Shown here piece by piece: positions 5,010-36,341 of a DNA stretch of 64,000 nucleotides; within the stretch, counting starts at the first letter, position 1, and every line of letters starts with the position of its first letter. The stretch is from Bacteroidaceae bacterium (GTDB lineage: Bacteria; Bacteroidota; Bacteroidia; Bacteroidales; Bacteroidaceae). The position numbers and the translations under genes were made by a program. The notes beneath the pieces were generated by a model. The model saw only the letters and a list, made by a program, of their open reading frames with translations. It ran no database searches and was not told where the DNA came from. The stretch lies in NCBI GenBank assembly GCA_017965425.1, contig JAGCPY010000055.1, positions 43,476 to 107,475 of the forward strand. The letters are read 5' to 3'.

Positions 5010-5771
5010 TTATCTAAAGGTGTTCTCCAAAGCATCAGCCAAAGCAAACATATCAGGGTAAACCATGTTTGCCCCAGCCTCCCAGAGTACACTATCTGGC
5101 AAAGGTCCGGTGTTGACGGCTATCGTGAAAATGCCAGCCGCACGAGCTGCCTGTACGCCCAAAGGCGCATTCTCCACCACAACTGCCTCTTCAGCCGTGA
5201 TGCCAGCTTTTTGCAGACCCATGAGATAGGGTTCTGGATCGGGTTTACCATAGCGCACATCATCGCCCGTAACCATGAGGTCTGCCGTGAAGTGACCAGG
5301 GTAATGCCTTTCTAAACGTGTTAGCAAAGATTGCTGGGCAGAACCCGTCACCAACACACGTTTCCATCCCCGCGCGCGCACTTTATCTAATACGATGGCT
5401 GCTCCAGGTATTTCCGGTGCTTCACCGCCACGAGCCGCCATGTATTCATTGAAGACAATTGTTTTGAGACGATAAAGTTCTCGTGCTTCTTCTTCCGTTG
5501 CTGGCCGTCCCCAGTAGCGCTGTGTAAAGATACTGATGGTGCCGATGCCAGTCCTTCCCTCATTCTCGAAAGCATCCTCTTCTTTCATCGGCAACCCATA
5601 TTCTGTCATTATCTTCGCCCAAGCAAAGGCATGACCTGGCATACTGTCGAACAGCACACCGTCCATATCAAAGAGGAAGGCCCTGAGACCAAACCCACAC
5701 CCCACCCCTCCCGTGAAGGAGGGGAGCGGCTGGCCCGATGTATGCGTATCTGTTAAAAAATCAGCATTCAT
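5010..5771 (-). CDS. HAD superfamily hydrolase, beta-phosphoglucomutase/sugar-phosphatase-like
   Basis: A 253-residue HAD phosphatase. Motif I is LFDMDGVLFDS (nucleophile and general acid Asp), with motif II VTGSA, motif III around GKPDPEPY, and motif IV as VVENAP, a change from the usual acidic VxED. The substrate is probably a small phosphosugar. Family homology begins only at LRAFLFDMDG; the roughly 29 preceding residues, including SGQPLPSFTGGVG, are encoded by one arm of a GC-rich palindrome, so the start at 5771 was probably acquired with that element. It lies 74 bp downstream of pgi on the same strand, consistent with hexose-phosphate metabolism. Confidence 0.85.
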   Translation of the reverse strand: MNADFLTDTHTSGQPLPSFTGGVGCGFGLRAFLFDMDGVLFDSMPGHAFAWAKIMTEYGLPMKEEDAFENEGRTGIGTISIFTQRYWGRPATEEEARELYRLKTIVFNEYMAARGGEAPEIPGAAIVLDKVRARGWKRVLVTGSAQQSLLTRLERHYPGHFTADLMVTGDDVRYGKPDPEPYLMGLQKAGITAEEAVVVENAPLGVQAARAAGIFTIAVNTGPLPDSVLWEAGANMVYPDMFALADALENTFR

Positions 5772-5846
5772 CAGAACTTCACCTTTTCTTTTTCATTACG
5801 CCAGCCCCCTCCCCCTCCCTTACGAGAGGGGCTGGGGGGTCTTTTT
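5693..5846. repeat. Family-1 composite palindromic element at the pgi/HAD junction
   Basis: The left arm has CCCCTCC (5705-5711) and GGAGGGG (5718-5724). The right arm (5801-5846) has CAGCCCC (5802-5808) and GGGGCTG (5828-5834), ending in GTCTTTTTT. The inner sides of the arms (GGCTGGC at 5729-5735 and GCCAGCC at 5800-5806) are also mutually inverted. The HAD start codon lies between the arms, and the right arm abuts the pgi stop. Confidence 0.7.
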
Positions 5847-7180
5847 TACTTCAGCCTATTTTTAATTGCCTCCGTCTCCTTCTCATACCCCGGTTTACCC
5901 AGCAGGGCGAACATGTTCTTCTTGTAGGCTTCGACACCTGGCTGGTTGAAAGCGTTGACACCGAGGAGCTGGCAGTGGATGCCACAGGCTTTCTCGAAGA
6001 AGTAGATGAGCTGACCGAGGTGGTAGGCATCGAGACGCTCGATGGCAATGCGGATATTGGGTACACCACCATCGACGTGCGCCAGCTGGGTGCCCAGTTC
6101 AGCCATCTTGTTGACCTCATCAACACGCTTGCCGGCAAGGAAGTTGAGGCCGTCGAGGTTCTCTTCATCGCAGGGGAAGAGCAGCGTATGCTCGGCCTTC
6201 TCCACACTGATGACGGTCTCGAAGATGGTGCGCTCGCCTTCTTGAATCCACTGTCCCATGGAGTGCAAGTCGGTGGTCAAATCGACGCTGGCGGGATAGA
6301 TGCCCTTGCCGTCTTTACCCTCGCTCTCACCGAAGAGCTGCTTCCACCATTCAGCCATGAAGTGAAGCTTCGGCTGGTAGTTGGCCAGGATCTCGATCTT
6401 CTTACCAGCCATGTAGAGGGCATAGCGGGTGGCGGCATACTGCGCAGCAGGGTTCTCAGCGAAGGGAGCTGCGGCCGTCTTCTCCATATCCTGTGCACCA
6501 CGGACGAGGGCGTCGATATCGAAACCTGCGACGGCGATGGGCAGCAGGCCCACAGGGGTGAGCACGCTGAAACGTCCACCGACATTATCAGGGATGACGT
6601 AGCTCTTGTAGCCTTCCTTGTCGGCACAGGTGCGGGCAGCGCCGCGCTTGGCATCGGTGATAGCTACGATGACCCTCTTGGCCACATCCTTGCCACGCTG
6701 CTCCTCGCACTGCTTCTTCAGCAGACGGAACGCCAAGGCGGTCTCGGTGGTGGTGCCGCTCTTGGAGATGTTGATGACGCCGAAGCGCTTGCCGCGAAGA
6801 TAAGCAGTCAACTCGGAGAGGTAGTCCTCGCCAATGTTATTGCCGGCAAAGAGGATGACCGGAGCCTTACCGTCTGCGAGAAGCCACTGGAAGCTGTTGC
6901 TGAGGGCTTCGATGACGGCTTTAGCACCGAGATAGCTGCCGCCAATACCTGCCACGACGACGGCATCGCACTCCTCGCGGAGCGCAGCGGCCGTGGCTTT
7001 GATGTCGGCCAGGAACGCGGGAGTGATGCTGCTGGGCAGGTGCAGCCAACCAAGGAAATCGTTGCCGGGGCAGGTGCCCGCTTCCAAAGCGTTCTGAGCC
7101 TCTACCACACGAGGAGCGAGGGCATTGATGGTCTCTGCGCTCACAAAGGGAGCAGTCTTGATGATGTCTAACTTAATCAT
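5846..7180 (-). CDS. pgi: Glucose-6-phosphate isomerase
   Basis: A 444-residue enzyme interconverting glucose 6-phosphate and fructose 6-phosphate in the cytoplasm. Recognisable blocks are [16 protein letters not shown], the phosphate-binding [14 protein letters not shown] and a C-terminal segment [21 protein letters not shown] carrying family signature residues. The length matches the compact bacterial form (as in Bacillus) rather than the 550-residue E. coli type. It has its own -7 box at 7220-7227 and probably co-transcribes the downstream HAD phosphatase, although a palindromic element separates them. Confidence 0.97.
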
Positions 7181-7219
7181 AGTTCTGTAGGTTTGATGTT
7201 ACTGTTTACTCTTTGCGCG

Positions 7220-7227
7220 CAAAGGTA
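7220..7227 (-). promoter_or_regulatory. -7 box for pgi
   Basis: CAAAGGTA is the reverse complement of TACCTTTG and lies 39 bp upstream of the pgi ATG. No convincing -33 box was seen. It indicates that pgi can be transcribed separately from the lipid-type operon that ends at 7303. Confidence 0.45.
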
Positions 7228-7302
7228 CGGCAAATTTGGGAGAAACAGGCAGAAACCTTCAAGAAAACGACCTAACAACCCTCATTTTTTGCTTTTCAGC
7301 TA

Positions 7303-8589
7303 TCAGCCATACTGCTGGCTAATGATGCGGGAGATACGTTTGGCAAGAGCCATGATGGTGAGCATGGGTGGCAGACCAAGAGCCTGTGGCAATAAGGAGG
7401 CGTCGGCGACGTAGAGATTGTCGGGCAACAATGGGGAGTGTAGCGTCTCAGCTTCAGCTGCGGAGAGGGGCAGCATTCCACCTGGATGACCAGCATTGAG
7501 CGTACCGAGAAAGATGTTCTGTTCATGGACTCCCATGCGAAGCAGAATCTCACGACAGTCAGCCACGCCACGCTTCAGGTATTCATGGTCGGTCGTTGTA
7601 AGGTTCTTCTGCATCTTATTGTGGTGTACGTCACCCTGTTCCACGTCTGCCAGCTTGATCATCAGGCTGACCATGCTGTCCATGGATTTGTACCACCTTT
7701 TGTTGAAGAAGAAACTGAGCCAATCCATATAGGGTGAGATAATGTACTTCTCACGCCGGCTGACGAAAGGCATCAGCAGTTGATGGTCTTGACGGGCTTG
7801 CTCCATCGGGGCAGCCACACACAACACGGGATCGATGAAGAGCCTTGGTTGGCAGTCGATACCAGAATTGCGCAAAATGTCGGGCGTCCCATAGCCACCA
7901 GCCGCCACAACGATGACATCTGCCTCTAAAGAACGTTCACTCCCCCAATGTAGGGAAGAAGTGTTGGAGACATATACCCGTTTCGCAATCTGATCACCAA
8001 TGTCAATATGGGTAACTTTGCAGCCAGTGATTACCTTGATGCCCTCAAGGAGTTCTCGAGTGTCCCATTTTGCTTGAGTTGGACAACCAATGGAACAATG
8101 GCCACACATCCGGCATTGCTTCGTTCGCAACAGTTTAGGCATGGGTTGTGGGTCGAATCCCATCTCCTGCATGACCTCGAAGGTTTGTTTTGTGATGCGT
8201 GACCAGCGATGCTGGTGGTCTGTAGTAATCGGAAGTTCCTGATAGAGTTCTTCAAATTCCCTATCGAGATGGATTCCTATTTTCTTCAATCCCTCGTCGG
8301 CACGCACAGCATTACCCGTGGCCAGTGTGGTTGTGCCGCCAATACCTCGGCCATAGACCATCACCGTCTCGGGATTCCGGTCGATGCGCATGGCAGGAAG
8401 GAAAAACTGGATGAGTCGTTCGTCGAAATAGAGACCTGTCCAACGGAACTTCGCCAATTGATTTAATGGCAGCGTCAGGGGCTTGAAGGCCTGACCTTGT
8501 TCCAATACAGTTACATCAAAATCTTTGGCCAGCATCTTAGCGGCCATGGCACCTCCGGCACCACTCCCAATGACAATTGCTTTTTTCAT
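7303..8589 (-). CDS. GMC-family FAD-dependent oxidoreductase (alcohol/sterol oxidase-like) with four-Cys cluster
   Basis: A 428-residue flavoprotein from the ATG at 8589, where MKKAIVIGSGAGGAMAAKML supplies the dinucleotide-binding GxGxxG. The longer open frame upstream is unrelated sequence overlapping the previous gene. GMC features follow: RGIGGTTTLATGN near residue 81, HPGGM and a C-terminal PPMLTIMALAKR. Residues 159-169 form CRMCGHCSIGC followed by P, a CxxCxxCxxxCP pattern that could bind an iron-sulfur cluster. The family oxidises alcohols, including long-chain alcohols and sterols. It is the last gene of the run, overlapping the preceding gene by 4 bp, so a fatty-alcohol-like substrate made by the acyl reductase is a fair inference. 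Confidence 0.85.
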   Translation of the reverse strand: MKKAIVIGSGAGGAMAAKMLAKDFDVTVLEQGQAFKPLTLPLNQLAKFRWTGLYFDERLIQFFLPAMRIDRNPETVMVYGRGIGGTTTLATGNAVRADEGLKKIGIHLDREFEELYQELPITTDHQHRWSRITKQTFEVMQEMGFDPQPMPKLLRTKQCRMCGHCSIGCPTQAKWDTRELLEGIKVITGCKVTHIDIGDQIAKRVYVSNTSSLHWGSERSLEADVIVVAAGGYGTPDILRNSGIDCQPRLFIDPVLCVAAPMEQARQDHQLLMPFVSRREKYIISPYMDWLSFFFNKRWYKSMDSMVSLMIKLADVEQGDVHHNKMQKNLTTTDHEYLKRGVADCREILLRMGVHEQNIFLGTLNAGHPGGMLPLSAAEAETLHSPLLPDNLYVADASLLPQALGLPPMLTIMALAKRISRIISQQYG

Positions 8590-9080
8590 TTTGTGTATGT
8601 GGCTAAACAGAATTTGCATCCCTCGGTTATGCGTTGCTGAAAGATAAGTCGCCCGCCACCAGAGAGCCCTCGGATGATGCCTTCGTCCAGAGCAGAGGCG
8701 GTCAGACAGATAGCGGGCGTATAATATTGGCTGAAAAAGCAACTGCGGAAACAGAGTTGCCCAGGTAATTGTCCCTCTAGTCTGATGCCAATGTTCCGAT
8801 AGAGAGCGATGATGAACAGCTCGATGTCAGCTTGCGTCCGAAGGCAGAATAGCCAACGGAGAAGACGTCCCACCTTGTACGCCTCTACGTTCATACGCTG
8901 CAAGAGCGACTCTTCTACATCACCCTGCAAATGGTCGCGAGTATATTCAGCATAGACGCGTAGTGCCTCGTCGTTCTGAAGCGTCCAAATGCGACGGGCA
9001 GGCTTCCCCAAAGCACGAGCTGTAAGGTTCATCAGTTGTTGAAGCTCTATGCGGCGGAAGAGAGAGGTGTCAGTTAGCAT
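8586..9080 (-). CDS. Conserved-looking protein of unknown function with C-terminal CKFC motif
   Basis: A 164-residue protein from the ATG at 9080 (MLTDTSLFRR); upstream ATGs at 9087 and 9104 are possible, but 9080 gives a short 11-bp overlap with the reductase gene. I do not recognise the family. The C-terminal third looks constrained: SQYYTPAICLTASALDEG, then SGGGRLIFQQRITEGCKF and CLA. There is no signal peptide or membrane segment, and it is rich in Arg and Leu. It is wedged between a fused acyl reductase/acyl-CoA synthetase and a GMC oxidase with overlaps on both sides, so a part in the same pathway is likely. The cysteines might bind metal or carry catalysis, but that is speculation. Confidence 0.75.
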   Translation of the reverse strand: MLTDTSLFRRIELQQLMNLTARALGKPARRIWTLQNDEALRVYAEYTRDHLQGDVEESLLQRMNVEAYKVGRLLRWLFCLRTQADIELFIIALYRNIGIRLEGQLPGQLCFRSCFFSQYYTPAICLTASALDEGIIRGLSGGGRLIFQQRITEGCKFCLATYTK

Positions 9081-11808
9081 ACATCGCATTGATTTCGCAT
9101 TCATAATGTTCCAAGACAATGTTGCGCTTCACCTTGAGGTTAGGTGTCAGCTCACCGTTTTTGATGCTCAATGGGGTCTTGATGATGCGCCAGCGCTTCA
9201 CCTGCTCAGGATGAGACAGCGACTGATTCATCTTTTCAATATCATGCTGCATAGAATCCGTGGAACCTGTCGTCCAAAGAAGCGCCGCACAATAGGGTCG
9301 TTTTTCACCCACCAGCACAGCCTGATCAACACATGGGATGTCCATCAACCGTTGCTCGATTTTCGTACAATTGATATTTTTACCGTAGGAAGTGATGAGC
9401 ATATCCTTCTTTCGTCCTCTGATATAGATGTGTCCATCGCTACCAACACTGCCCAGGTCGCCCGTGTGAAGTTCGCCGTTCTGGAAGGTGTCGCTCTCCA
9501 GTTTGTAATAACCCAATGCCACTTGCGGCCCTCGCACGACAAGCTCACCGTCAGGACGTACGCTGACGGAGGTATCAGGCAACGGTGTTCCGATGCTGGG
9601 GATAACATTATCCCCCAAACGGTTGAGAGTAATGAGCGGGGCTTCGGTCTGACCGTAGGCATTGTGAATCTCTATGCCCAAGCCTCTAAAGCGCAATAAC
9701 AACTCTTCACTAATAGGGGCAGAACCAACAAGCAGCTGTGAGCATTGGTCGAGTCCAGCTTTGCGGAGAACAATACGACGCAGGAACCCGCCCAAGAATT
9801 TTTTCATCCGACTATCGGGCATCCTTAGGTATTTCCGACCCAAGGGATTCTGCTCTATCTGTTCCCAAAGTTTTTCATAGAAACGAGGCACGGAAAAAAA
9901 GACTGTGGGGCGCACCTCGGGAAGGGCTTTGGTAAGCATCTGAAAGTCGTTCAAGTAGTATATCTTCGCTTTGCAGAGCATACAGTAAGGAGCATAAGCG
10001 GCAAGTATGCCTTCGACGACGTGGCTCATCGGCAGGAACGAAAGATAGCGCATCTCATGGTTGCGGTCATGCCATGAAAGCAAGTTTGTCAACACCTCGC
10101 CCATCCACTTCAGTTGGTTGAAGTTGAACATCACCCCCTTGGGCTCTCCGGTGGTGCCAGAAGTGTAGCGGATGGTGGCCAAGTGCCCCGCTCCAAGAGC
10201 GGGAATTGGACTATTCCGTTGTAGAGAAGCAGAAGGATTGCCTTTTCCTAAGCCGGCAAATAGGACAACCTGGACATCATGGTCATTGTCAATAGTAAAA
10301 GAAAAAACTCCCCCATCCCATGAAGAGTGGCCGGAGAAAGAGAGGTTGGCTTTAAGACTGTTCCAGACTCTTTCGTCGCCAACGAAGAACCAGCGGGCCC
10401 CACTCTTCTTCAGCAGAAGGGCAATCTCGTTGGTCGGGGTCGTGTAATAGATGGGAACACTGACGGCACCTAACAGTCCGATTGCGTTGTCAAGGGCCGC
10501 GTGCTCCGTACAGTTGATGCCAGAGAGAGCCACCGTTTTGCCTTGCTTTACGCCAAGCTCTGTTAGTTTGCCTACGAAGTGATGAACAAGGTTGTTCATC
10601 TGCTTCCCAATCACCTTTTCCGTACCTCGAGCTGATATATTATAATAGGTAATAGGGTAATGGCGGCTTTCGCGACGAATCACGGCTTGCTCAAAGATAC
10701 TCTTATCCGACAGGCGCATGAAATTGTGACGACAAGCGAAGTCTAACATAATTGGTAAGAACTCGCGCCAGTTGAGGCAATAAGTACCTGTCAGCTGGTC
10801 TGTGTTGGTTCGGTCAAACACATGATTATCGAAGAAATATGGCATCAAAGCCACGAAATTCGACAAAAGACTATGCCGTTTGGCATCCGTGCCGGAATTG
10901 TAACGACGTCCAATGGCGCACAAGAACGGCAGGGGAAGGAAGAACGGTACAGGGAGATTGATCTGCAAGTGCTCCAAGGCCCACACACGAACAGCCTGCA
11001 CCAACTCACCGACTTGCGGCAATTGATTAAAAGGAGCCGTCAGATGGAAAGTCTTTCCTATGGCCAAGGGGCTCAATGTCAATGCCACCACTTGCTTTGC
11101 CACATAGTCCACGGGCACTACGTTCACAGTCTGTGTTCTACTGACTGGCAAGCACCTAAGCTTCCCCTGGAGCATCTGTTTCAGCACATAATAAACGGTG
11201 TTGAAATTGCGGGTGCGCCCCGTCTGACAGTTGCCTACAATCATGCCTGGACGGCAAACAATCAGAGGTAAGGATGTTGCTCTTACCACGCGTTCCGCCT
11301 CGGCCTTGCTCTGCTCGTAGAGACTATAGTATGAACTGATGGGATGATAATCCTCCATGATGAGTCCGCTTCGAGTTCCGGCCACGTAAGCTGTGGAAAT
11401 ATACGTGAAGCACTTCAGGTACGGCATCTGCTCAGACAGCTTAACCATGTGGTCGGTGCCAATAACGTTCATTCGCCAGAGGTCATCTTTGGATTTCTGA
11501 ATGCCCGTTTCTGCCGCACAGTGGATTACATAGGTGGTCTCTGCAACCAAAGTGGTACGTTCCTCATCGTTCAGAGCCAGACCGTCCTCCATAATATCAC
11601 CCACTACGGGCTGCACCCGCAGACCGATGGCATTGGCGAGGACATCGTCTTCCCACCACAAAGCATACAGGCGATTTACAGCCTCTGTTTCTGAAGCTGC
11701 CCGCACCAACACACGAATGAGACTGTCGGAGGTCATGAGCAGCTGATGCACGATTTCCGTACCCAAAAGCCCGGTACCACCTGTTATGAAAAACGTTCGT
11801 TCAGCCAT
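9070..11808 (-). CDS. Bifunctional fatty-acyl reductase / acyl-CoA synthetase fusion
   Basis: A 912-residue two-domain protein. Residues 1 to about 360 are an extended SDR of the thioester-reductase/fatty-acyl-CoA-reductase type: TGGTGLLG (9-16), catalytic Ser in YISTAYV (about 138) and YxxxK (Y164-K168). Residues about 375-912 are an ANL adenylating ligase of the long-chain acyl-CoA synthetase type: YTSGTTGEPKG (548-558), NAYGQTE, LHTGDLG and the RGRKKD hinge. The simplest reading is activation of a fatty acid followed by reduction to an aldehyde or alcohol. No acyl-carrier domain is visible between the halves. It overlaps both neighbours (25 and 11 bp). Such fusions are unusual for Bacteroidales; the product is unknown. 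Confidence 0.88.
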   Translation of the reverse strand: MAERTFFITGGTGLLGTEIVHQLLMTSDSLIRVLVRAASETEAVNRLYALWWEDDVLANAIGLRVQPVVGDIMEDGLALNDEERTTLVAETTYVIHCAAETGIQKSKDDLWRMNVIGTDHMVKLSEQMPYLKCFTYISTAYVAGTRSGLIMEDYHPISSYYSLYEQSKAEAERVVRATSLPLIVCRPGMIVGNCQTGRTRNFNTVYYVLKQMLQGKLRCLPVSRTQTVNVVPVDYVAKQVVALTLSPLAIGKTFHLTAPFNQLPQVGELVQAVRVWALEHLQINLPVPFFLPLPFLCAIGRRYNSGTDAKRHSLLSNFVALMPYFFDNHVFDRTNTDQLTGTYCLNWREFLPIMLDFACRHNFMRLSDKSIFEQAVIRRESRHYPITYYNISARGTEKVIGKQMNNLVHHFVGKLTELGVKQGKTVALSGINCTEHAALDNAIGLLGAVSVPIYYTTPTNEIALLLKKSGARWFFVGDERVWNSLKANLSFSGHSSWDGGVFSFTIDNDHDVQVVLFAGLGKGNPSASLQRNSPIPALGAGHLATIRYTSGTTGEPKGVMFNFNQLKWMGEVLTNLLSWHDRNHEMRYLSFLPMSHVVEGILAAYAPYCMLCKAKIYYLNDFQMLTKALPEVRPTVFFSVPRFYEKLWEQIEQNPLGRKYLRMPDSRMKKFLGGFLRRIVLRKAGLDQCSQLLVGSAPISEELLLRFRGLGIEIHNAYGQTEAPLITLNRLGDNVIPSIGTPLPDTSVSVRPDGELVVRGPQVALGYYKLESDTFQNGELHTGDLGSVGSDGHIYIRGRKKDMLITSYGKNINCTKIEQRLMDIPCVDQAVLVGEKRPYCAALLWTTGSTDSMQHDIEKMNQSLSHPEQVKRWRIIKTPLSIKNGELTPNLKVKRNIVLEHYECEINAMYAN

Positions 11809-19591: not shown

Positions 19592-20671
19592 TTATCTGAA
19601 GCTGTCGGTGAGGAGCTTGATTTCTATCGTCGGTGCGATGCGCTCATAGAGGATGTTGTAGACGGCGTCGAGGATGGGCATGTTGACGTGCAGGTGGCGG
19701 TTGATTTCCTTCATGCACTTGCACCCGAAGTAGCCCTCGGCAATCATCTCCATCTCTATCTGCGCACTCTTGACGGAGTAGCCTTGCCCTATCATGGTGC
19801 CGAAGATGCGGTTGCGCGAGAACTGGCTGTAGCCGGTGACGATGAGGTCCCCCATGTAGCAGCTCTCGAAGATGCTGCGCTGGATGGGATGCACGGTGGC
19901 AAGGAAGCGGTTCATCTCCTGCAAGGCGTTGGACATGAGCACAGCCTGGAAGTTGTCGCCGTACTTCAGCCCACGGCAGATGCCGGCAGCGATGGCGTAG
20001 ACGTTCTTCAGGACGGAGGCGTATTCTATGCCGATGACGTCGCGGGAAGTCTTCGTCTTGACGTAGCCGGACGCCATCATGTCGGCAAAATCCTCCGCCT
20101 TCTGCTCGTCGGAGCAACCGACGGTGAGATAGGTCAGCCGCCCCAGCGCCACTTCCTCGGCGTGGGAAGGACCTGCGATGACGGCCAGGTTCTCGTCGGG
20201 GACGTTGTACACCTGATGGAAGAACTCCGAGACGCAGAGGTTGTAGTCGGGAACAATGCCCTTGATGGCGGTGACGTTGAACTTGTCGCGCAGGCGCACC
20301 TTCAGCTTTTTCAGATGGCCTGTCAGGTAAGGCGACGGCGTCACCCAGATGAGTGTGTCGCAGTGGTCCACCACCTCGTTGATGTCCGAAGAGAAATGGA
20401 TGCGTCCGACATCGAAGTGTACGCCTGTGAGGTAAGCGGGGTTGTGGCTGAGGCGCTTGAAGTCGTCGATGCGGTCCTGACGGCGCAGGTACCACCAAAT
20501 CTGGTCGTTCTTCTCCAGCATCATCTTCGCGATGGCCGTGGCCCACGAGCCGCCGCCCATGACGGCGATGGAGTAAGACTCACCCTCTGGGGACCCACCC
20601 CCCTGCCCCTCCCTTGCAGGGAGGGGAGTATGATCCTTTGACTGTTTATTTCCGAATCCTAGCATCTGCAA
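19592..20671 (-). CDS. gpsA: Glycerol-3-phosphate dehydrogenase [NAD(P)+] with repeat-encoded N-terminal extension
   Basis: A 359-residue enzyme making sn-glycerol 3-phosphate for phospholipid synthesis. The Rossmann motif MGGGSWATAIAKMM, AIKGIVPDYNL, the GPSHAEEVA block and the catalytic-Lys segment SVLKNVYAIAAGICRGLKYG are intact. GpsA normally begins a few residues before the glycine motif. Here about 34 residues precede it, including KDHTPLPAREGQGGGSPEGE encoded by one arm of a GC-rich palindrome at 20590-20630. No start codon lies between the arm and the conserved region, so the extension is probably translated, starting at 20671 or 20665. It lies 49 bp downstream of lysS on the same strand. 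Confidence 0.95.
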   Translation of the reverse strand: MQMLGFGNKQSKDHTPLPAREGQGGGSPEGESYSIAVMGGGSWATAIAKMMLEKNDQIWWYLRRQDRIDDFKRLSHNPAYLTGVHFDVGRIHFSSDINEVVDHCDTLIWVTPSPYLTGHLKKLKVRLRDKFNVTAIKGIVPDYNLCVSEFFHQVYNVPDENLAVIAGPSHAEEVALGRLTYLTVGCSDEQKAEDFADMMASGYVKTKTSRDVIGIEYASVLKNVYAIAAGICRGLKYGDNFQAVLMSNALQEMNRFLATVHPIQRSIFESCYMGDLIVTGYSQFSRNRIFGTMIGQGYSVKSAQIEMEMIAEGYFGCKCMKEINRHLHVNMPILDAVYNILYERIAPTIEIKLLTDSFR

Positions 20672-20763
20672 TCACAATTAAAATAGAACACTCCTAAAAG
20701 TAGCTATTCTTGACAGGTAACTACTCCCCGCCCAACGAGGGAGGGGCTGGGGGGAGGGTTCTT
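20590..20763. repeat. Family-1 composite palindromic element spanning the lysS/gpsA junction
   Basis: The left arm contains a perfect CCCCTCCC (20606-20613) / GGGAGGGG (20619-20626) hairpin and lies in the gpsA N-terminal codons. The right arm (20724-20763, CCCCGCCC ... GGGAGGGGCTGGGGGGAGGG) encodes the last lysS codons. The arms are inverted copies of each other, 93 bp apart, and the gpsA start codon sits between them. Confidence 0.75.
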
Positions 20764-22529
20764 TCCAATTCTGCTACGCTCGGCTTTTCAATGTCCAGCT
20801 TGTACTTCTTGATGACCTCTCCAATCTGCTGCTGCACCTTCTGCGCCTTCTGTCCGGCAAGGTCGCTGACGAGGTTGTAGCCGCACTTATAGAGTATAGG
20901 TACTATCTCCTCGGAGAAACCGAGAGCCGTGAACGCCTCGGGCTTGTCCTTGGGGATGCGCTTCTCAGGCTTCATCTGCGGGAAGAGCATGATCTCCCCG
21001 ATGGCGAACTTGCCCGTCATGAGCATGGCGAGGCGGTCGATGCCGATGCCGATGCCGCTGGTGGGGGGCATACCGTATTGCAGGGCGCGCAGGAAATCGT
21101 GGTCGATGATCATGGCTTCGTCATCGCCCTTGGCGGCCAGCCGCATCTGCTCCTTGAAGCGCTCCTCCTGGTCGATGGGGTCGTTGAGTTCGGAGTAGGC
21201 GTTGGCCAGCTCCTTGCCGTTCACCATCAGCTCGAAGCGCTCGGTGAGGCCGGGTTTGCTGCGGTGCATCTTGGTGAGCGGTGACATCTCCACGGGGTAG
21301 TCGATGATGAAGGTGGGTTGGATGTAACTGCCCTCGCAGAACTCACCAAAGAGCTCATCGATGAGCTTGCCCTTGCCCATCGTCTCGTCCACCTCCATGC
21401 CTTTCTCCTTGCAGAAGGCACGAATCTCTTCCTCGCTCTTGCCGGTGCAGTCGAAGCCTGTCTTTTCCTGAATCGCTTCCAGGATGGGCAGACGACGGTA
21501 GGGAGCTTTGAAACTGATGACGTTGCCGTCAATCTCCACTTCCGGCTTGCCGTTGACGGCGGTGCAGATTTCCTCCAGCATCCGCTCGGTGAACGACATC
21601 ATCCAGTTGTAGTCCTTGTACGAGACATACAACTCCATGCAGGTGAACTCCGGATTATGCGTCTTGTCCATGCCCTCGTTGCGGAAGTTCTTGCCCATCT
21701 CATACACGCCCTCGAAGCCGCCCACGATGAGGCGCTTCAGGTAGAGTTCCGTCGCGATGCGCATGTACATATCTTGATTCAGCGCGTTGAAGTGGGTGAT
21801 GAATGGACGTGCTGTGGCGCCTCCTGCAATCATCTGCAGGATGGGTGTCTCCACTTCGGTGTAACCGGCCTCGTCGAGGATGCGGCGCATCGTGCGGATG
21901 ATGGTGGCGCGCTTCAAGAAGGTTTCCTTGACACCGGCGTTCACGATGAGGTCCACATAACGCTGACGATAGCGCAGCTCGGGGTCGTCGAAGGAATCAT
22001 ACACGTTGCCCTCGGAATCCGTCTTCACGATGGGCAGCGGCTTCAGGCTCTTGCTCAGCAGCGTCATCTCCATGACATGCACGCTGATCTCACCAGTCTT
22101 CGTGCGGAAGACATAACCCTTCACGCCGATGAAGTCGCCCAGGTCCAGGAGTTTCTTGAACACCACGTTGTACAGATCCTTGTTCTCGTCCGGACAGATG
22201 GCATCGCGCTGCACATACACCTGAATCCTTCCCTTACTATCCTGCAACTCCGCGAAACCGGCCTTGCCCATGATGCGTTTGCTCATGACGCGACCGGCGA
22301 TGCTCACGACGGGGCTGTTCTCGGGTGTCGCCGTCTCGCGCACATCATTGCCTTCCTCGTCCTTTCCTACGACGGGCAGGTCAACGAAGCTGCTGATGAT
22401 ATCTGTGCTCCAAGAGGTGACAGGGTATTCCGCTGCGGGGTAAGGCTCAATGCCCATATCGCGCAGCGCCTGCATATTCTGACGACGAACAATCTCCTGT
22501 TCGCTCAACTCAAGTACTTTCAAATCCAT
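20721..22529 (-). CDS. lysS: Lysyl-tRNA synthetase, class II
   Basis: A 602-residue aminoacyl-tRNA synthetase charging tRNA-Lys. The start is at 22529 (MDLKVLELSEQEIVRRQNMQ). The OB-fold anticodon domain (SIAGRVMSKRIMGKAGFAEL) is followed by the class II catalytic core: motif 2 FRNEGMDKTHNPEFTCMELY and motif 3 GIGIGIDRLAMLMTG. After the catalytic core there is an extra ~80-residue C-terminal region (LGFSEEIVPILYKCGYNLVS) seen in Bacteroidales LysRS. The last residues, ERTLPPAPPSLGGE, come from the palindromic element at 20724-20763 and are absent from ordinary LysRS. Confidence 0.97.
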   Translation of the reverse strand: MDLKVLELSEQEIVRRQNMQALRDMGIEPYPAAEYPVTSWSTDIISSFVDLPVVGKDEEGNDVRETATPENSPVVSIAGRVMSKRIMGKAGFAELQDSKGRIQVYVQRDAICPDENKDLYNVVFKKLLDLGDFIGVKGYVFRTKTGEISVHVMEMTLLSKSLKPLPIVKTDSEGNVYDSFDDPELRYRQRYVDLIVNAGVKETFLKRATIIRTMRRILDEAGYTEVETPILQMIAGGATARPFITHFNALNQDMYMRIATELYLKRLIVGGFEGVYEMGKNFRNEGMDKTHNPEFTCMELYVSYKDYNWMMSFTERMLEEICTAVNGKPEVEIDGNVISFKAPYRRLPILEAIQEKTGFDCTGKSEEEIRAFCKEKGMEVDETMGKGKLIDELFGEFCEGSYIQPTFIIDYPVEMSPLTKMHRSKPGLTERFELMVNGKELANAYSELNDPIDQEERFKEQMRLAAKGDDEAMIIDHDFLRALQYGMPPTSGIGIGIDRLAMLMTGKFAIGEIMLFPQMKPEKRIPKDKPEAFTALGFSEEIVPILYKCGYNLVSDLAGQKAQKVQQQIGEVIKKYKLDIEKPSVAELERTLPPAPPSLGGE

Positions 22530-22560
22530 GATACTTCTATAATCTAATGTTATTCCGCTG

Positions 22561-22568
22561 CAAAGATA
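22561..22568 (-). promoter_or_regulatory. -7 box for lysS
   Basis: CAAAGATA is the reverse complement of TATCTTTG, 31 bp upstream of the lysS ATG. No clear -33 TTTG at 19-21 bp was found. Confidence 0.5.
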
Positions 22569-22643
22569 CAACAAAATTTCGATTCGCAGAGCCTCGGTGC
22601 ATATATTTTAGCTATCTTTCACATAGAAAGGGAGAGCCCGGCC

Positions 22644-27368: not shown

Positions 27369-28499
27369 ATGAAAACGTTTCTATCCTTTATCCTCAAAGA
27401 AGCCAAGCATATCCTGCGCGACAAACGCACAATGCTCATCCTCTTCGGTATGCCTGTGATGCTGATGCTGCTCTTCGGCTTCGCCATCACCACCGACGTG
27501 AAGAACGTCAGGACGGTGGTGGTGACCTCCTTCCAGAGCCCTCAGACCCAGGCGGCCGTCGAACGGCTGGCACAGTCGGAGTACTTCACCATCACGCAAA
27601 CCGTGGCCACGCCTCAGGAAGCGGAACGGCTGATACGCAACCAGAAAGCAGACATGGGCCTCATCCCCTCTCCAAAGGGCGGCGGGAGCGATGGCCTTCA
27701 GTGGCAAATCATGGTTGACGGCTGCGACCCCAATATGGCGCAGCAATGGACCACCTATGCCCAGAGCATACTGTCTCAGCCCATCGACGCCAAACACTAC
27801 ACACCCCCCTCGCCCCTCGAGTTCCCCTCGCCCCTTGGAGAGGGGTTAGGGGCGAGGTCGTGGCTGGGGGTGAGGCTTCTGTACAACCCCCAGATGCGCT
27901 CGGCCTACAACTTCGTGCCAGCCATCATGGGTATGCTCCTGATGCTCATCTGCGCCATGATGACCTCCATCTCCATCGTCCGCGAGAAGGAGCGAGGCAA
28001 TATGGAGGTGCTACTTGTTTCGCCCGTGCGACCGCTGATGGTGATCATCGCCAAGGCTGTGCCCTATCTCATGCTGGCCTTTGCCATCCTCATCACCATC
28101 CTGCTGATGGCTCACTATGTGTTGGCTGTGCCCTTGGCCGGCTCACTGTTCTGGATTCTTGTCGTCTCCACCATCTACATCATCCTTGCCTTGTCGCTTG
28201 GCCTGCTCATCTCCAACATAGCCAAGACACAACTGGTGGCACTGTTGCTCTCGGCTATGGTGCTGCTGATGCCCGTGGTGATGCTCAGCGGCATGATGTT
28301 CCCTGTGGAATCGATGCCCGTAGTGCTGCAATGGGTCTCCGCCGTGGTGCCGCCGCGCTACTACATCGAGGCGATGCGCAAGCTGATGATTATGGGCGTA
28401 GGCATCGGCGATGTGGCCAAGGAGGTCATCATCCTGACAGTCATGACCTTGCTGCTGCTTGCGGTAGCGCTCAAGAAGTTTAATGTGCGATTGGAATAA
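27369..28499 (+). CDS. ABC-2 type permease (YbhS-like) carrying two in-frame repeat insertions
   Basis: A 376-residue inner-membrane permease: an N-terminal helix (DKRTMLILFGMPVMLMLLFG), a large periplasmic domain, then five C-terminal helices (AIMGMLLMLICAMMTSISIV onward), typical of YbhS/YhhJ exporters. The periplasmic domain contains two stretches unlike the family: IPSPKGGGSDG (DNA 27664-27690) and PSPLEFPSPLGEGLGARSWL (DNA 27803-27875). Both derive from the GC-rich palindrome family and keep the frame open. The gene starts 2 bp after the ATPase stop and is followed after 5 bp by the second permease. Confidence 0.93.
   Translation: MKTFLSFILKEAKHILRDKRTMLILFGMPVMLMLLFGFAITTDVKNVRTVVVTSFQSPQTQAAVERLAQSEYFTITQTVATPQEAERLIRNQKADMGLIPSPKGGGSDGLQWQIMVDGCDPNMAQQWTTYAQSILSQPIDAKHYTPPSPLEFPSPLGEGLGARSWLGVRLLYNPQMRSAYNFVPAIMGMLLMLICAMMTSISIVREKERGNMEVLLVSPVRPLMVIIAKAVPYLMLAFAILITILLMAHYVLAVPLAGSLFWILVVSTIYIILALSLGLLISNIAKTQLVALLLSAMVLLMPVVMLSGMMFPVESMPVVLQWVSAVVPPRYYIEAMRKLMIMGVGIGDVAKEVIILTVMTLLLLAVALKKFNVRLE
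27664..27690 (+). repeat. Short family-1 palindrome copy in the permease gene
   Basis: CCCCTCTCCAAAGGGCGGCG resembles the reverse complement of the centre of the copy at 27803-27875 (CCCCTCTCCAAGGGGCGAGG). It is read in frame as IPSPKGGGSDG. Confidence 0.5.
27803..27875 (+). repeat. Long family-1 palindrome inserted in frame in the permease gene
   Basis: A perfect inner stem CCTCGCCCC (27826-27834) / GGGGCGAGG (27849-27857) is flanked by further C-rich and G-rich blocks. About 24 codons are added to the periplasmic domain without a stop or frameshift. Confidence 0.7.
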
Positions 28500-29603: not shown

Positions 29604-29648
29604 TGGCGGAAAACAAACTATAGTTATTTTACAAACGTATAAACCATC

Positions 29649-31025: not shown

Positions 31026-31057
31026 AATAGCCTCAACTTCATTTTTCCTGCAAAATG

Positions 31058-31089: not shown

Positions 31090-31120
31090 CAGCCCCAATC
31101 TTTTTATAGTATTTATCAGT

Positions 31121-31738: not shown

Positions 31739-31814
31739 ACTTATCCTCGTTCTTTGCTGCACCATATACATTATTATTATCTATTTGCAGCGCTAATCAG
31801 ATATAGGCCAAGTC

Positions 31815-34049
31815 ATGGAAGAAAGTACTCGCGAAAGGCTCATCACTAAGTGCCAACAGCTATCTGAAGAATGGAATGCTCATGCCCTGAATGTGCTAGC
31901 TTGGCTTACCAAGGATGTTGAAGGAAGACTGTTGCCTCTCATCAACTGCATGGCGGACGTGCGACGCATTCCGCAATGTGGCCAGCAGACGTCGATACTG
32001 ATAGAGAACTTACTGAAGAAACTGCGCCCCTTTTATGACCTCCTTACGCGGAATCCAATAGCTGTCGAATCAACAGAAGAAGTACTCTATAAGCAGTTGG
32101 AAGGTAAACGTTTCCATTTCCCCACCCAAAGCAACTCCGTGGAACGTCGTCTCCAATTCACGTTCGAAAAGATGGTGGATGAAGTCAGCAACGTGCGGGC
32201 GAGGAACCTCATACGTCGCCATTTGAAGCAATATCGTGACACGGAGCCTTACATCAACGATGCCAACGCCCTTTGGAAATGGTATGGCGTAGGAAAACAG
32301 ACGGTGGAACACATTATGGAGTTCTTCGAAGATTTCCGTGCCGCCTACCAAACTATCATCGAGAACGGGGATGGAGATGACTCATTCGATGACACAGAGC
32401 CGACGATTCTTGAAGCGGATTATCCCTTCCTGACAGTTGCCGAGCAAGAGTTCGTGTCCTCGTTCTGGAAGAGCGAAAGGCGCTATCCTGTGTTCTACAT
32501 TGCCCTACGATACCTACAACGAGCCACCGACCGTCCCACCCAGACCTTTGCTCGTGTCAATGGCATCATGGGACAATATGAATCCCTGCAAACGCTGGCC
32601 ACAGAATATAGCTTGACGTTTGAACGTACTCGCCAGATGTCAAAGCTGAAAATTATCGATGGCCTTCCCGTCTGGAACCTCGAACGATGGGCAACCTTGG
32701 AATTCTTCCACAGCCCTTTGCTCACAGAGGCGACTATCCATTGGGAGGTTTTACAGAAGTTGGAACACATCGAAGAGATGAGTTCCTACACTGCTTTAGC
32801 CATCCTCGCCGCCCTGCGTCCATTAGAAATCATAGCTTTGCGCGCCGATGGCTACAAAGCCAATGCCCGCAGAGGAAAAGGAGAAGCATGGGAACAGCCA
32901 CATGTGCTCTTCGCTTACGACAAAAGCCAGATTATCTTTCCTTTTGGGCCCTTCCTGAAAACCATCGGACACGAGGCGTTGCTGCAACGCATCGAGGATA
33001 GGACGCTCGACCTGCAAGCCCTCACCGAAAGCTTCTTCCAGCCCGACACCAACGAGCAACAGAGACAAAAAGTACTGGCCATACTGCGGGAAGTCGTACC
33101 AATGTTCCCCGACGTGGAGGTGAACGAGGACACCATCCTCTTCCGCAGCAACCACACCAACTATGCCGAGGAATTTTACCAGATTCTTAAACGAAGGGGC
33201 GAAGCCATGACTGTGGAGGACATCTATGCCGAGTTCCGGGAACAACATCCTGAGGACCACCACACCGACAGCACTTTCATCCGCAGCTACATGTGGCAAG
33301 ACAATCGCTTCGAAGCCGTGGGACGCAAATCCACCTATCAGCTGCGGGAATGGGAGCAGTTTGCAGGAAGCCTGCAGGAGCTGGCTGTGCACTTGCTCAA
33401 GGACGAAGCAGAGCCTCTGCCGCTAACAGTACTGATAAGCCGTATGACAGAACATCGCAGCAACACAACGACTAAGAGTTGCGAAAGCAGCATCTACCTG
33501 GCCGTCGTGGCAGGAACGCTTCAATACTTTTTCACAGCTGAAAACAACGCACCTTCAGCCTTTGTTGGTATTGAGGGTAAGACCTATTCTTCTCACTTCT
33601 GGATATCGCCTTTGACTGTGGATGGCGCAGTAACCGGCATGCACCGTTTTCTCTCGGAGCGTGGGCATTGGCCTTATGCTTCCAGTTCTGATGTAATAGA
33701 AGACCGCCTCAACTACACGCTACGGAAATACACCCAGCGCGTGCATGTGACGGATGAGGAATACGCCCGCTTCCAGCAGGGCATGGCCGACATTCCTCCT
33801 CATCAATATCCCCGAAATGAGCGGGATGCCATCTTCATGGAACGCTGCCACAGCCTCGATTCTTTCTGGAAACGGCACCATCGGCTGCCTAACAATGACG
33901 AAGAACCGAAGCTTGCGAAATGGTATCGAGAAACCCAAGCCAAACAACAGCAACTGGATGACTTCCGAAAGTATCACTTTGAGCGCATCGGACAGAAAAC
34001 CGCCAAGCCTCAACAGCAGTTGTCATTTGACTTCGGCGAAGGCAGCTGA
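31815..34049 (+). CDS. Large protein of unknown function with RpoA-CTD-like, HTH and repeat modules
   Basis: 744 residues, no signal or membrane segment. I do not recognise it as a named family. Visible modules: two helix-hairpin-helix-like units (IPQCGQQTSILIENLLKKL near 52-70; KWYGVGKQTVEHIMEFF near 155-171) of the RNA polymerase alpha-CTD style; a sigma region 4-like HTH (EYSLTFERTRQMSKLKI near 262); a HARE-like winged helix (YQILKRRGEAMTVEDIYAEF near 455); and two C-terminal repeats (RFLSERGHWPYASSSDVIED; SFWKRHHRLPNNDEEPKLAK) resembling helicase-associated repeats. It ends in LSFDFGEGS. A DNA- or transcription-linked role is inferred. It starts 76 bp after the HU-like gene. Confidence 0.8.
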   Translation: MEESTRERLITKCQQLSEEWNAHALNVLAWLTKDVEGRLLPLINCMADVRRIPQCGQQTSILIENLLKKLRPFYDLLTRNPIAVESTEEVLYKQLEGKRFHFPTQSNSVERRLQFTFEKMVDEVSNVRARNLIRRHLKQYRDTEPYINDANALWKWYGVGKQTVEHIMEFFEDFRAAYQTIIENGDGDDSFDDTEPTILEADYPFLTVAEQEFVSSFWKSERRYPVFYIALRYLQRATDRPTQTFARVNGIMGQYESLQTLATEYSLTFERTRQMSKLKIIDGLPVWNLERWATLEFFHSPLLTEATIHWEVLQKLEHIEEMSSYTALAILAALRPLEIIALRADGYKANARRGKGEAWEQPHVLFAYDKSQIIFPFGPFLKTIGHEALLQRIEDRTLDLQALTESFFQPDTNEQQRQKVLAILREVVPMFPDVEVNEDTILFRSNHTNYAEEFYQILKRRGEAMTVEDIYAEFREQHPEDHHTDSTFIRSYMWQDNRFEAVGRKSTYQLREWEQFAGSLQELAVHLLKDEAEPLPLTVLISRMTEHRSNTTTKSCESSIYLAVVAGTLQYFFTAENNAPSAFVGIEGKTYSSHFWISPLTVDGAVTGMHRFLSERGHWPYASSSDVIEDRLNYTLRKYTQRVHVTDEEYARFQQGMADIPPHQYPRNERDAIFMERCHSLDSFWKRHHRLPNNDEEPKLAKWYRETQAKQQQLDDFRKYHFERIGQKTAKPQQQLSFDFGEGS

Positions 34050-34103
34050 CCTTTTTCTCATAACATTATAAGACTACTTTTCATAAGAACTACGACTTTC
34101 TTT

Positions 34104-35783
34104 ATGGCAAAGAATAATAAAAAGAAAAAGACACAGGGCCAAGGGCAGCAGTTCCTCTCGCCCGAAAGTTTCATCAAGGAACGGGCGCGCACGTTGCCAC
34201 TCGGCAAATGCTACATCAACGACGATGCCGACGAGGCGGGCATCATGAGCATCATCGTCACCCGGCAGCACACGGGCGGACGCATCAGCATGGCAGGGTT
34301 CCTGGTGGATACGCTATGCCTGGGGGTGAAGGATACGTTCTACCATCTGCGCATGGAGGACTACGAGCTGGAAGACTACCTTTCCCGCTATCCTGTTTAT
34401 TTCCGCGAATGCAGCTACGAAGAAGCCCACAACCGCATCTATGGAGCCATCGCCTTCGCCGAGGAAGCGGGCATCGAGCCGCATAAGGACTTCCGGCTGA
34501 CACAGTACATGCTGGAAGAGGATAACGACGACATCCCACTCATAGAATACGAATACGGCAAGGACGGCAAGCACTTTCTCGTCTGCCACAGCAACCTCGA
34601 AGCCAGCCGCTATCTGCCCACCCTGCGAAAGCACTTGGGCGACGACTTCCTGTATCTGATAAACAATCAAGAACGCGACGACGAACTGGACGAGGACGAC
34701 GACTACGACGACTACGACGAGGAGGATGACGACGACGAGCCTGTATATATGGCAGACCTTGTAGCCGAGCTGGAACCCGATGACCTACACATCACGGCCT
34801 GCGGCCTTGGCATAAAATTAGACTTGAACGCCAGCATCAAGAAGCAGCGCGAGCAGTATGTGAAGGGCGTGCTGGAAAAACCGAAGGACGTGCTCATGCG
34901 ATTGCCAAGCGAAGACCTGATGATGCTGGAAGACCTGGCCGGAGAGTCAGAAAAAGACCGTATCCTCATCTATCCCAACACCTCTGCTGATTCATTGATG
35001 TACCACTACGGCCTCATCGAGTATGACGACGAGGATGAAGAGAGTTGCTTTTACCGTATCACGGAGGACTTCTGGAAAGCCGCACGTCCTCATCTGAAGG
35101 AAGTCATGAACGAGGAAGCCAACCAGGCACGTCTGACTGTGGAAGGTCTCATCTTGGGGTTGGTGAACTTGTATGGCTGTGTCAACATCAAAGATACCAA
35201 ACACTATATGGCACAACTGATGGAGTTACCGGAAGAGGCTGTAGCGGAGCTATTCGATATCGTTCTGTCCCACTCGGCCCTTTTGCCTACAATTCTTTCT
35301 TCTATGACCTCAGACAGCGAGGCCATCAAGGCTGACTTCGACAACAGCGTGTCTTTCGTCTCACGCTTCAGATGGGAATCCACAGACAAACTCCTCGAAG
35401 CCACGGCTCATCGTGACGACAAGATTCCTGCCCGCAAGGAATACACGTTAGAGGAGGTCATCATGGCATCAAGCATCATCCCTATCATCCCAAACGCTCA
35501 CAAAGAAGATTTCACACGTTACCTCTGCTCTCAACTGGGCTATGACGAGGACAGAGCCAACCTCATCTGCCACCATCTGTGGCTGCGTGCACAGCACGAA
35601 GAAGACCCCGACGACACCCGTGGCTCCTACTTCGAATACTTCACCAAGGAGGTCGTGAGCAATGCCCCAAAGAGACCTAAGCTGACTGGCATCAACGAGG
35701 GGATGCAGGCCCTGCAAGCCTACATGAATGGCATGCCCCGCTGGATCCTCAAAGGGCATACGCCAGAAGACATCTCCAGGTAA
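34104..35783 (+). CDS. Large hypothetical protein with central poly-Asp/Glu stretch
   Basis: 559 residues with a basic start (MAKNNKKKKTQGQGQQFLSP), an N-terminal block (GIMSIIVTRQHTGGRISMAG then FLVDTLCLGVKDTFYHL) and an acidic run at about residues 192-213 with some 20 Asp/Glu, encoded by GAC/GAG repeats near 34676-34740. The rest is helical and hydrophilic with no catalytic motif I can name. The N-terminal block resembles a region found in several uncharacterised bacterial proteins. It lies 54 bp after the 744-residue gene on the same strand, so the two may be an operon. Confidence 0.78.
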   Translation: MAKNNKKKKTQGQGQQFLSPESFIKERARTLPLGKCYINDDADEAGIMSIIVTRQHTGGRISMAGFLVDTLCLGVKDTFYHLRMEDYELEDYLSRYPVYFRECSYEEAHNRIYGAIAFAEEAGIEPHKDFRLTQYMLEEDNDDIPLIEYEYGKDGKHFLVCHSNLEASRYLPTLRKHLGDDFLYLINNQERDDELDEDDDYDDYDEEDDDDEPVYMADLVAELEPDDLHITACGLGIKLDLNASIKKQREQYVKGVLEKPKDVLMRLPSEDLMMLEDLAGESEKDRILIYPNTSADSLMYHYGLIEYDDEDEESCFYRITEDFWKAARPHLKEVMNEEANQARLTVEGLILGLVNLYGCVNIKDTKHYMAQLMELPEEAVAELFDIVLSHSALLPTILSSMTSDSEAIKADFDNSVSFVSRFRWESTDKLLEATAHRDDKIPARKEYTLEEVIMASSIIPIIPNAHKEDFTRYLCSQLGYDEDRANLICHHLWLRAQHEEDPDDTRGSYFEYFTKEVVSNAPKRPKLTGINEGMQALQAYMNGMPRWILKGHTPEDISR

Positions 35784-35826
35784 TCCCTTCCATAGCTTTG
35801 TACGAAGCTGACGGGCGCTTTTACAC

Positions 35827-36240
35827 ATGACAGATTTCAAGTTTAGCTATGATTATCAGGCGACTATGATTAGGCAGTGTTTTATCATCTTTGGATGTCT
35901 CGCCGTGGGCGAGGTGATTGTCTGGCTGACAGGCATCACGATACCAAGCAGCATCATCGGGATGCTGTTGCTGACCGCCTTGCTTCAGGCGAAGGCGGTG
36001 AAGCTGGAATGGGTGAAGGGGATGTCCGACTTCCTCATCGCCAATATGGGTTTCTTCTTCGTGCCGCCCGGCGTGGCGCTCATGCTCTACCTGGACCTCA
36101 TCAAGGCTGAGTTGCTGCCGATCATCGTGGCGACCGTCGTCAGTACCGTACTGGTATTGGTTGTGACGGGATGGATACATCAGATGAGAATGAAAAAAAA
36201 GACCCTCCCCCCTGCCCCTCCCTTGCAGGGCGGGGAGTAG
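35827..36240 (+). CDS. CidA/LrgA family holin-like membrane protein with repeat-encoded C-terminal tail
   Basis: A 137-residue small membrane protein. An internal Met at 35869 (MIRQCFIIFGCLAVGEVIVW) fits the usual LrgA start, so the first 14 residues may not be translated. Four hydrophobic segments follow (TIPSSIIGMLLLTALLQAKA; GFFFVPPGVALMLYLDLI). The last ~12 residues, KTLPPAPPLQGGE, come from a GC-rich palindrome arm. It is paired with an LrgB-type gene 124 bp downstream. Such pairs are linked to murein hydrolase control, pyruvate or glycolate transport in different bacteria; the role here is unresolved. Confidence 0.87.
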   Translation: MTDFKFSYDYQATMIRQCFIIFGCLAVGEVIVWLTGITIPSSIIGMLLLTALLQAKAVKLEWVKGMSDFLIANMGFFFVPPGVALMLYLDLIKAELLPIIVATVVSTVLVLVVTGWIHQMRMKKKTLPPAPPLQGGE

Positions 36241-36341
36241 TCACCTTCAAGAACAGAATACACCTATGCATAAATATTTACACTACCCGTCAAATACATT
36301 CAACACCCCCCTGCAAGGGAGGAGCTGGGGGGAGTCTTTTT
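36196..36341. repeat. Family-1 composite palindromic element between lrgA- and lrgB-like genes
   Basis: The clearest copy. The left arm (36196-36240) starts AAAAAGACCC and holds CTCCCTTGCAGGG. The right arm (36305-36341) ends GGGGGGAGTCTTTTT and holds CTGCAAGGGAG. The arms are inverted copies bounded by AAAAAGAC (36196-36203) and GTCTTTTT (36334-36341), with a ~64-bp AT-rich centre. The left arm encodes the lrgA-like protein's last codons and stop. Confidence 0.8.

Follow-up and report, generated by a model that had tools for sequence, protein, structure and literature searches.

Inverted G/C-rich arms at gene junctions of a Bacteroidaceae bacterium and their association with DUF559 genes

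Elements of inverted arms in the window

We analysed a 64,000-nucleotide stretch of the genome of a Bacteroidaceae bacterium (the window, G000:C49:43476-107475, from an assembly of 3.73 Mb in 96 contigs), in which several junctions between co-directional genes carry short elements built of two inverted G/C-rich arms. An original prediction, made from the letters of the window, had placed three long copies at the junctions pgi/HAD, lysS/gpsA and lrgA/lrgB and a half copy at GT4/GH57; Pfam matches bear out these gene names, and the copies lie at about the predicted positions (Table 1). The arms were scored with a covariance model, R1, for which 21 arms of the bacterium's own genome, including four window arms, served as training set, and the predicted copies were recovered with E-values from 1.9e-18 to 0.038; the strong scores at lysS/gpsA and lrgA/lrgB come from arms that themselves belonged to this set, and the divergent pgi/HAD and half copies score weakly. 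Two decayed pairs, with approximate limits, and a pair in frame inside an ABC permease gene extend the predicted list.

These elements are closely interwoven with the genes that they adjoin. At lrgA/lrgB, lrgA terminates within the left arm (ending ..KKKTLPPAPPLQGGE) and the ATG of lrgB lies beyond the right arm. lysS likewise terminates inside an arm (ending ..TLPPAPPSLGGE, stop at 20721), the interval enclosed by the arms holds a candidate gpsA start (20665), and the second arm is read as an N-terminal extension (..HTPLPAREGQGGGSPEGE..). At the pgi/HAD junction, the pgi stop lies at the edge of one arm and the other arm is read as the HAD N terminus (MNADFLTDTHTSGQPLPSFTGGVGCGFG..). The decayed pair at 54634 has an upstream open reading frame (ORF) at 54716-55822 and a downstream ORF at 53723-54706 that begins MENTSVAQVTSSLPTNEGKGEE.., and the right arm of the other decayed pair is read as an N-terminal extension (MLKKKNNLSNTNSSLPQRNGGGRV..). 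The arms inside the permease gene enclose sequence that is conserved in relatives (VDGCDPNMAQQWTTYA).

Table 1. Elements and adjoining genes, in window coordinates unless a contig is named; E-values are from R1, with the strand of the match, and the arms at lrgA/lrgB and lysS/gpsA belonged to its training set
Feature	Position	Strand	Details
Complete small element, lrgA/lrgB junction	36196..36345	+	left arm and tail 36196-36253 (+, E 1.9e-18); right arm and tail 36288-36343 (-, E 3.6e-10)
lrgA	35827..36240	+	stop contributed by left arm of element; Pfam LrgA
lrgB	36365..37057	+	Pfam LrgB
Complete small element, lysS/gpsA junction	20587..20765	-	arms 20587-20644 (+, E 2.7e-17) and 20708-20765 (-, E 8.4e-17)
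lysS	20721..22574	-	stop contributed by element; Pfam LysRS
gpsA	19592..20671	-	candidate start within element; Pfam GpsA
Divergent element, pgi/HAD junction	5687..5850	-	arms 5687-5742 (+, E 0.015) and 5812-5839 (-, E 0.038)
Single arm (half copy)	49443..49495	-	match on -, E 0.0083; right behind GT4 stop, ahead of GH57
Decayed pair, co-directional junction	54634..54792	-	54735-54792 (E 1.2e-6); 54634-54691 alone (E 0.33)
Decayed pair, junction of ORFs 3616-4332 and 4329-4994	4286..4414	+	right arm 4360-4414 (E 4.6e-4); left arm by eye
Two inverted arms of a second arm family, in frame inside ABC-2 permease 27369-28499	27651..27859	+	
Complete form, arm - DUF559 gene - inverted arm, ~0.5 kb	C89:27958-28466 (own genome)		

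Arrangement and placement across the genome

A search of the own genome bore out the expectation that the arms are repeated outside the window. The lrgA/lrgB copy gave 46 BLAST matches, and R1 detected at least 104 arms at E<=0.01, a lower bound because 150 of 1112 first-look candidates were scored. Seventy-eight of these arms form 39 inverted pairs that share one arrangement without exception: the left arm shows its C-rich strand and the right arm its G-rich strand. Thirty-seven pairs are short (111-215 bp), with terminal inverted repeats and no gene, and make up doublets in many copies; the other two measure 418 and 509 bp. Two tail motifs, picked after inspection of the copies, keep to their sides as well, the A tail being found upstream in 17/39 pairs and never downstream, and the B tail downstream in 11/39 and never upstream. 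Chance likeness of GC-rich sequence is ruled out by R1 E-values down to 1.9e-18 (for an arm of the training set) and also by the controls of the DUF559 survey described below (0/59 and 1/70).

Judged by codon usage, the coding strand does not change across any of the 39 pairs (36 firm scores, three weak), of which 32 lie at junctions and seven in frame within genes. Same-strand neighbours account for 33/46 cases in the window, and at such a rate 32 of 32 junction copies would arise with a probability of ~2e-5. The upstream stop lies between -10 and +50 nt from the outer edge of the element in 32/32 junction pairs, either at -10 to +5 nt (22 pairs) or within the left arm at +29 to +50 (10 pairs), where the protein often receives the tail ..TLPPAPPLQGGE. 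In 23 of the 32, the space between the arms holds a candidate downstream start (ATG, GTG or TTG) from which the right arm is read in frame (..TPLPAREGQGGGS..), and in the remaining nine the candidate lies near the right arm's outer edge (-12 to +21); all of these starts are candidates, and some junctions hold several. The arms thus read would encode linker peptides such as ..TLPPAPPLQGGE and ..PLPAREGQGGGS.., and the recognisable tails are all in sense orientation. The insertion preference after stop codons that the original prediction had offered comes close to this placement; a true preference is not proved, since survival bias could yield equal placement. At five loci (L300, L304, L308, L309 and L312; L, G and C numbers are our handles for loci, genomes and contigs) right arms were seen by eye inside or just behind a signal-peptide-like leader of the downstream gene.

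Orthologous junctions with and without the element, a comparison suggested by the original prediction, were found. At lrgA/lrgB the element is missing in 5/5 relatives with a legible junction, and in three of them (L359, L361, L363) lrgA extends 20 nt into lrgB. The lysS/gpsA junction was legible in 28 of 30 genus loci, eight of which hold arm-like sequence by eye (seven of those also by R1); the other 20 are armless, with overlapping genes in ten (e.g. L106, L108, L111) and a short gap in ten. In L107 and L109 an element that brings its own stop and start occupies the place where the lysS/gpsA genes of other relatives overlap, and the element of the own genome belongs to an arm family other than theirs. 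At fmt, L230 is empty, L228 holds a short copy, and the own genome, L229 and L235 hold copies with DUF559; either of two ATGs may be the native fmt start, and the one that overlaps the DUF559 gene's end is no less likely than the one to the left of the copy.

DUF559 genes between inverted arms

Both long R1 pairs enclose a DUF559 gene (PF04480), truncated in one of them, and all four DUF559 genes of the own genome (five PF04480 matches, two being pieces of one gene) lie between inverted arms. The first stands between a ClC channel gene and fmt (both by Pfam) and the second, the truncated copy, upstream of a presumed MFS transporter gene (by eye). The third, between etfA and an acyl-CoA dehydrogenase gene (Pfam), has arms of a second family, the right one within the dehydrogenase, and the fourth is fused to an apparent acetyltransferase (by eye) ahead of argG (Pfam). 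In addition, the B tail of the DUF559 copies is also found in short copies.

By sequence, the DUF559 protein resembles PDB entry 3hrl (E 4.1e-22) and the homing endonuclease I-Bth0305I (3r3p, E 0.025), and by fold, using an AlphaFold2 model (pLDDT 86), it resembles the same two structures (3hrl, E 8.8e-7; 3r3p, E 4.6e-5, TM 0.68). Residues E15, D43, E54, H60 and D69 are invariant in 24 DUF559 sequences and are, by our own assignment, the letters of the EDxHD signature. DUF559 is thus predicted to be a nuclease of the Vsr/EDxHD fold related to I-Bth0305I. PADLOC returned weak matches only, including a homing endonuclease model.

To extend this to other genomes, we took as score the best inverted complementarity of the 300 nt to the left of the DUF559 domain with the 400 nt to its right (threshold >=30), with windows further out from the domain as controls. 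DUF559 was present in 36/121 family, 170/296 phylum and 23/41 genus genomes searched, and these samples took the best DUF559 match per genome, up to 30 or 20; a further sample of named genomes, chiefly Prevotella and other Bacteroidales, comprised the best 80 of 393 relatives, so that all samples lean toward strong DUF559 matches. Inverted G/C arms reached the threshold at 24/33 family and 18/29 phylum loci, compared with 0/59 controls (three of 62 control windows were too short), and at 67/79 loci in named genomes (the flank of one of the 80 was too short), compared with 1/70 controls. Family and phylum loci were taken in contig orientation, so the 300 and 400 nt windows were sometimes swapped, although the score is symmetric, and three loci are common to both samples (L038/L159, L051/L188, L069/L223). 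R1, made from arms of the own genome, matched both arms around DUF559 in 9/18 further genus loci. Furthermore, arm similarity tracks DUF559 similarity (Mantel r 0.245, equalled in 0/2000 permutations; 95 loci, i.e. the 100 past the arm threshold after near-identical proteins were dropped), a correlation not corrected for the shared ancestry of the host genomes, and different arm families each accompany a DUF559 gene within one genome (L033, L034).

Among nine plasmid loci, hand-picked from 44 records with matches, four passed the threshold (Pseudanabaena 128, Sinorhizobium 208, Deinococcus 41, Sphingomonas 74), two had weaker G/C hairpins (Synechocystis 27, Picosynechococcus 29) and three showed none (Shinella 19, Photobacterium 16, Azospirillum 28), with controls reaching up to 27. 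A DUF559 region of Neisseria gonorrhoeae (L385, score 36), excluded from this count, has G/C hairpins on both sides, of which two similar ones are direct copies and an inverted one lies further out.

The in-frame position of 7/39 R1 pairs in the own genome has its counterpart in the DUF559 genes. Reading frames were legible at 133/142 DUF559 loci, the other nine being dropped; 85 are shorter than 180 aa and 43 are of at least 250 aa, not every one of which need be a true fusion. Pfam places DUF559 in one frame with LeuRS (L069, L072, L221), HsdR (L080), MetH (L077), HsdM (L088), SpoIID (L041), RecG (L224), guanylate kinase (L164), proteins of poly(A)/CCA-polymerase type (L206) and isopropylmalate-dehydrogenase type (L039), and class I synthetases that we read as ValRS (L173, L194, L211, L225); further hosts named by eye are ValRS (L196, L197, L203) and DegT-type aminotransferases. 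The synthetase copies occupy corresponding places in the editing domains, directly before (A/F)TTRP(E/D)TI(F/L/M)G, as one would expect if homing targets a conserved site or if this loop tolerates insertion. No intein family appeared in Pfam scans of 15 host-DUF559 frames at the E-values used, and no protein-splicing motifs were noticed by eye in such frames, although no search was aimed at inteins.

A putative mobile element and its alternatives

Given these associations, we think it rather likely that the copies in the window are non-autonomous relatives of a DUF559 element and that their arms form the termini of a very small mobile element. When complete, this element would consist of an arm, a DUF559 gene and an inverted arm, ~0.5 kb in all, and the window copies of ~150-180 bp would resemble miniature inverted-repeat transposable elements (MITEs) in having kept both arms and the inner tails and lost the gene. 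Such an element would settle where one co-directional gene stops and the next one starts, or within a protein and in its frame, with a left arm that is readable to a stop or falls directly behind the upstream stop, a region before the right arm that usually offers a candidate start, and arms that read as Pro/Gly-rich linkers; insertion in and between important genes may be tolerated because the element brings a stop, a start and readable linkers with it. The DUF559 protein would set off mobility with a cut in the DNA and have the arms for its cognate ends, and the element would then be copied into the break. The cutting, the recognition of the arms, the copying step, the absence of splicing, the descent of the small from the complete form and mobilisation by DUF559 are what we infer from sequence. 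The DUF559 link, the supply of starts and stops and the in-frame copies reach beyond the evidence of the window on which the original prediction was founded.

In anatomy this would be an element of a known kind. It shares with MITEs its shortness, terminal inverted repeats, want of a gene and kinship to a longer, gene-bearing copy; the DUF559 copies, whose arms and B tail recur in short copies, would be putative autonomous partners. No clear target-site duplication was seen against diverged relatives, and the longer copy encodes no transposase. Rickettsia palindromic elements (RPE), of 100-150 bp, are described in the accessible text of PMC2229807, PMC10969869 and PMC3733652 as translated in frame inside conserved proteins and also lying beside genes; as far as that text goes, they and the CGTC group of repetitive extragenic palindromes (REPs) share in-frame palindromic elements with our family, guanylate kinase being a host in both (here L164). 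The likeness to RPE is one of description, and unlike them our family has a candidate enzyme between its arms; for CGTC REPs, a whole superfamily to which the Rickettsia elements belong, a survey of 2013 is reported to have met with no dedicated transposase (PMC3733652). The homing endonuclease I-Bth0305I is similar in fold and sequence, and the recurrent sites in the editing domains of ValRS-type proteins and LeuRS are also reminiscent of such enzymes, but the DUF559 genes have inverted arms and arm-only derivatives in place of an intron or an intein, neither of which was noticed by eye.

A DUF559 mobiliser would be new if confirmed. The accessible text of PMC12907096, PMC9403480, PMC8836110 and PMC6712171 on DUF559 contains no link to palindromic repeats, subscription papers and preprints lying mostly outside this search, and that of PMC9927313, a prefix match to DUF5590, holds no DUF559/palindrome link either. 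Tentatively, and as a possibility that we would not yet expect to hold, these elements may represent a widespread class without transposase or splicing, in which DUF559 lies between translatable palindromes with arm-only offspring that carry their own stop, start and linkers, and DUF559-type enzymes may be the missing mobilisers of RPE, CGTC REPs and the G/C-rich palindromes found in Bacteroidota, Cyanobacteria and Alphaproteobacteria. Bacterial genomes commonly contain short palindromic repeats, and in several phyla a candidate enzyme here lies between palindromes. If the proposal is true, it would suggest a role for many members of DUF559, in Pfam a 'protein of unknown function', account for unusual P/G-rich tails and N-terminal extensions of Bacteroidota proteins, which are a likely source of wrong start-codon calls, and show a way for a nuclease gene to reside within the genes of tRNA synthetases, seemingly with no intein involved.

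Several observations weigh against a DUF559-driven element. Short copies have tails in common and mostly unrelated spacers, and 26/104 arms are unpaired. In gltB, arms of ~18 and ~14 residues surround ~38 native residues (by alignment with five other genus sequences), and the ABC permease, with its other arm family, also keeps native sequence between two arms; therefore arms also enter singly, and we rejected the idea that every pair is a rigid single insertion unit. The leader that lies between the arms at the five signal-peptide loci also looks native by eye. No clear target-site duplication was seen in empty/filled comparisons at lysS/gpsA, fmt and lrgA/lrgB, in which the relatives are diverged (the nearest having 67-89 per cent identity in aligned blocks). 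Loci below the arm threshold number 12/79 in named genomes, 20/62 in family and phylum, 5/9 on plasmids and 9/18 in the genus, and shared ancestry may contribute to the Mantel correlation. Within the genus, R1 arms were present at surveyed loci in 7/23 genomes with DUF559 (in one, G423, solely through its own DUF559 copy) and 2/18 without (G430, G450), a difference in the expected direction that is not significant (Fisher p 0.25).

Some of these points would suit a different origin, in which other machinery (host repair, template switching between hairpins or another enzyme) moves the arms and DUF559 is a passenger profiting from palindrome-bordered insertion sites. Single arms, arms around native sequence, the lack of a clear target duplication at lysS/gpsA and lrgA/lrgB, and the two genus genomes with arms in which DUF559 was not detected all speak for it. 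However, those two genomes are only ~80 per cent complete, the association of DUF559 with arms is very strong and sequence-matched, and it recurs with different arm families in one genome and on plasmids of other phyla; we regard this origin as unlikely.

Less probable again, and in our view improbable, are REPs, or their doublets forming hairpins (REPINs), moved by a REP-associated tyrosine transposase (RAYT, TnpA-REP). The layout is similar, since REPtrons also have an enzyme gene between inverted palindrome pairs and small doublets elsewhere in the genome, and a GT[AG]G motif lies directly inside the stem of the arms. According to the accessible text of PMC3733652 and PMC6006769, one genome can hold several REP families with a separate enzyme for each, and the palindromes supply stops or lie inside ORFs, all of which is also seen here; TnpA-REP subclasses 2.4 and 2.6 are known in Bacteroidetes (PMC6006769). 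In contrast with the HUH transposase of those systems, the enzyme here is a predicted Vsr/EDxHD-fold nuclease, GT[AG]G stands on the opposite side of the stem (by eye, on the C-rich strand at the 3' rather than the 5' foot), and the enzyme gene can share a reading frame with unrelated host proteins, a feature that the same text of the two papers does not describe. The original prediction had reported no transposase or RAYT gene in the window, where we made no family search across all ORFs; PF01797 has two matches in the own genome, one of them ~1.7 kb to the left of the window. Both matches are nearest to IS200/IS605 transposase, score below the NCBIfam cut-off and are associated with other hairpins, and no R1 arm within 1.5 kb of either was convincing (best E 0.71). 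RAYT was rejected as the main explanation because these genes are IS200/IS605-like and without convincing R1 arms. The IS200-like Y1 transposase genes at L032 (G000:C49:41537-41758, ~1.7 kb left of the window; low score) and L031 have hairpins of another kind on their borders (GCCCTGAAAGGGC.., CCCAGGGCNNCGCCCTGGG.., by eye) and may belong to a separate REP-like system.

A selected regulatory RNA, whose long hairpins at operon junctions would govern mRNA processing or the relative expression of the neighbours, as the original prediction had also suggested, gained no direct support and is highly improbable: strict placement at co-directional junctions and strong predicted folds (-63.9, -84.0 and -80.3 kcal/mol; z -6.0, -5.4 and -5.9) would agree with it, but such folding is expected of any inverted GC-rich arms, 7/39 pairs lie in frame inside proteins, the element is missing from orthologous junctions of relatives, the arms flank DUF559, and no Rfam match was found at the elements, 5S rRNA being the sole known RNA family in the window.

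In a uvrA-like gene left of the window (L032:2641-2800, by eye) two G/C-rich arm-like stretches in frame surround apparently native sequence (..DPSPTLPAAS..SPSGKAGSSVGEG..). The window itself also contains inverted repeats of other kinds. A different repeat family with long inverted arms (CTCACCT..AAAAGGTGAGGGATTGAGGGTTTTTC) is found at 44290-44393 and 60280-60552, with a similar stretch at L031:2200-2410, and two inverted arms of 35 nt, 86 per cent complementary and spaced 12 nt apart, lie at 53630-53711.

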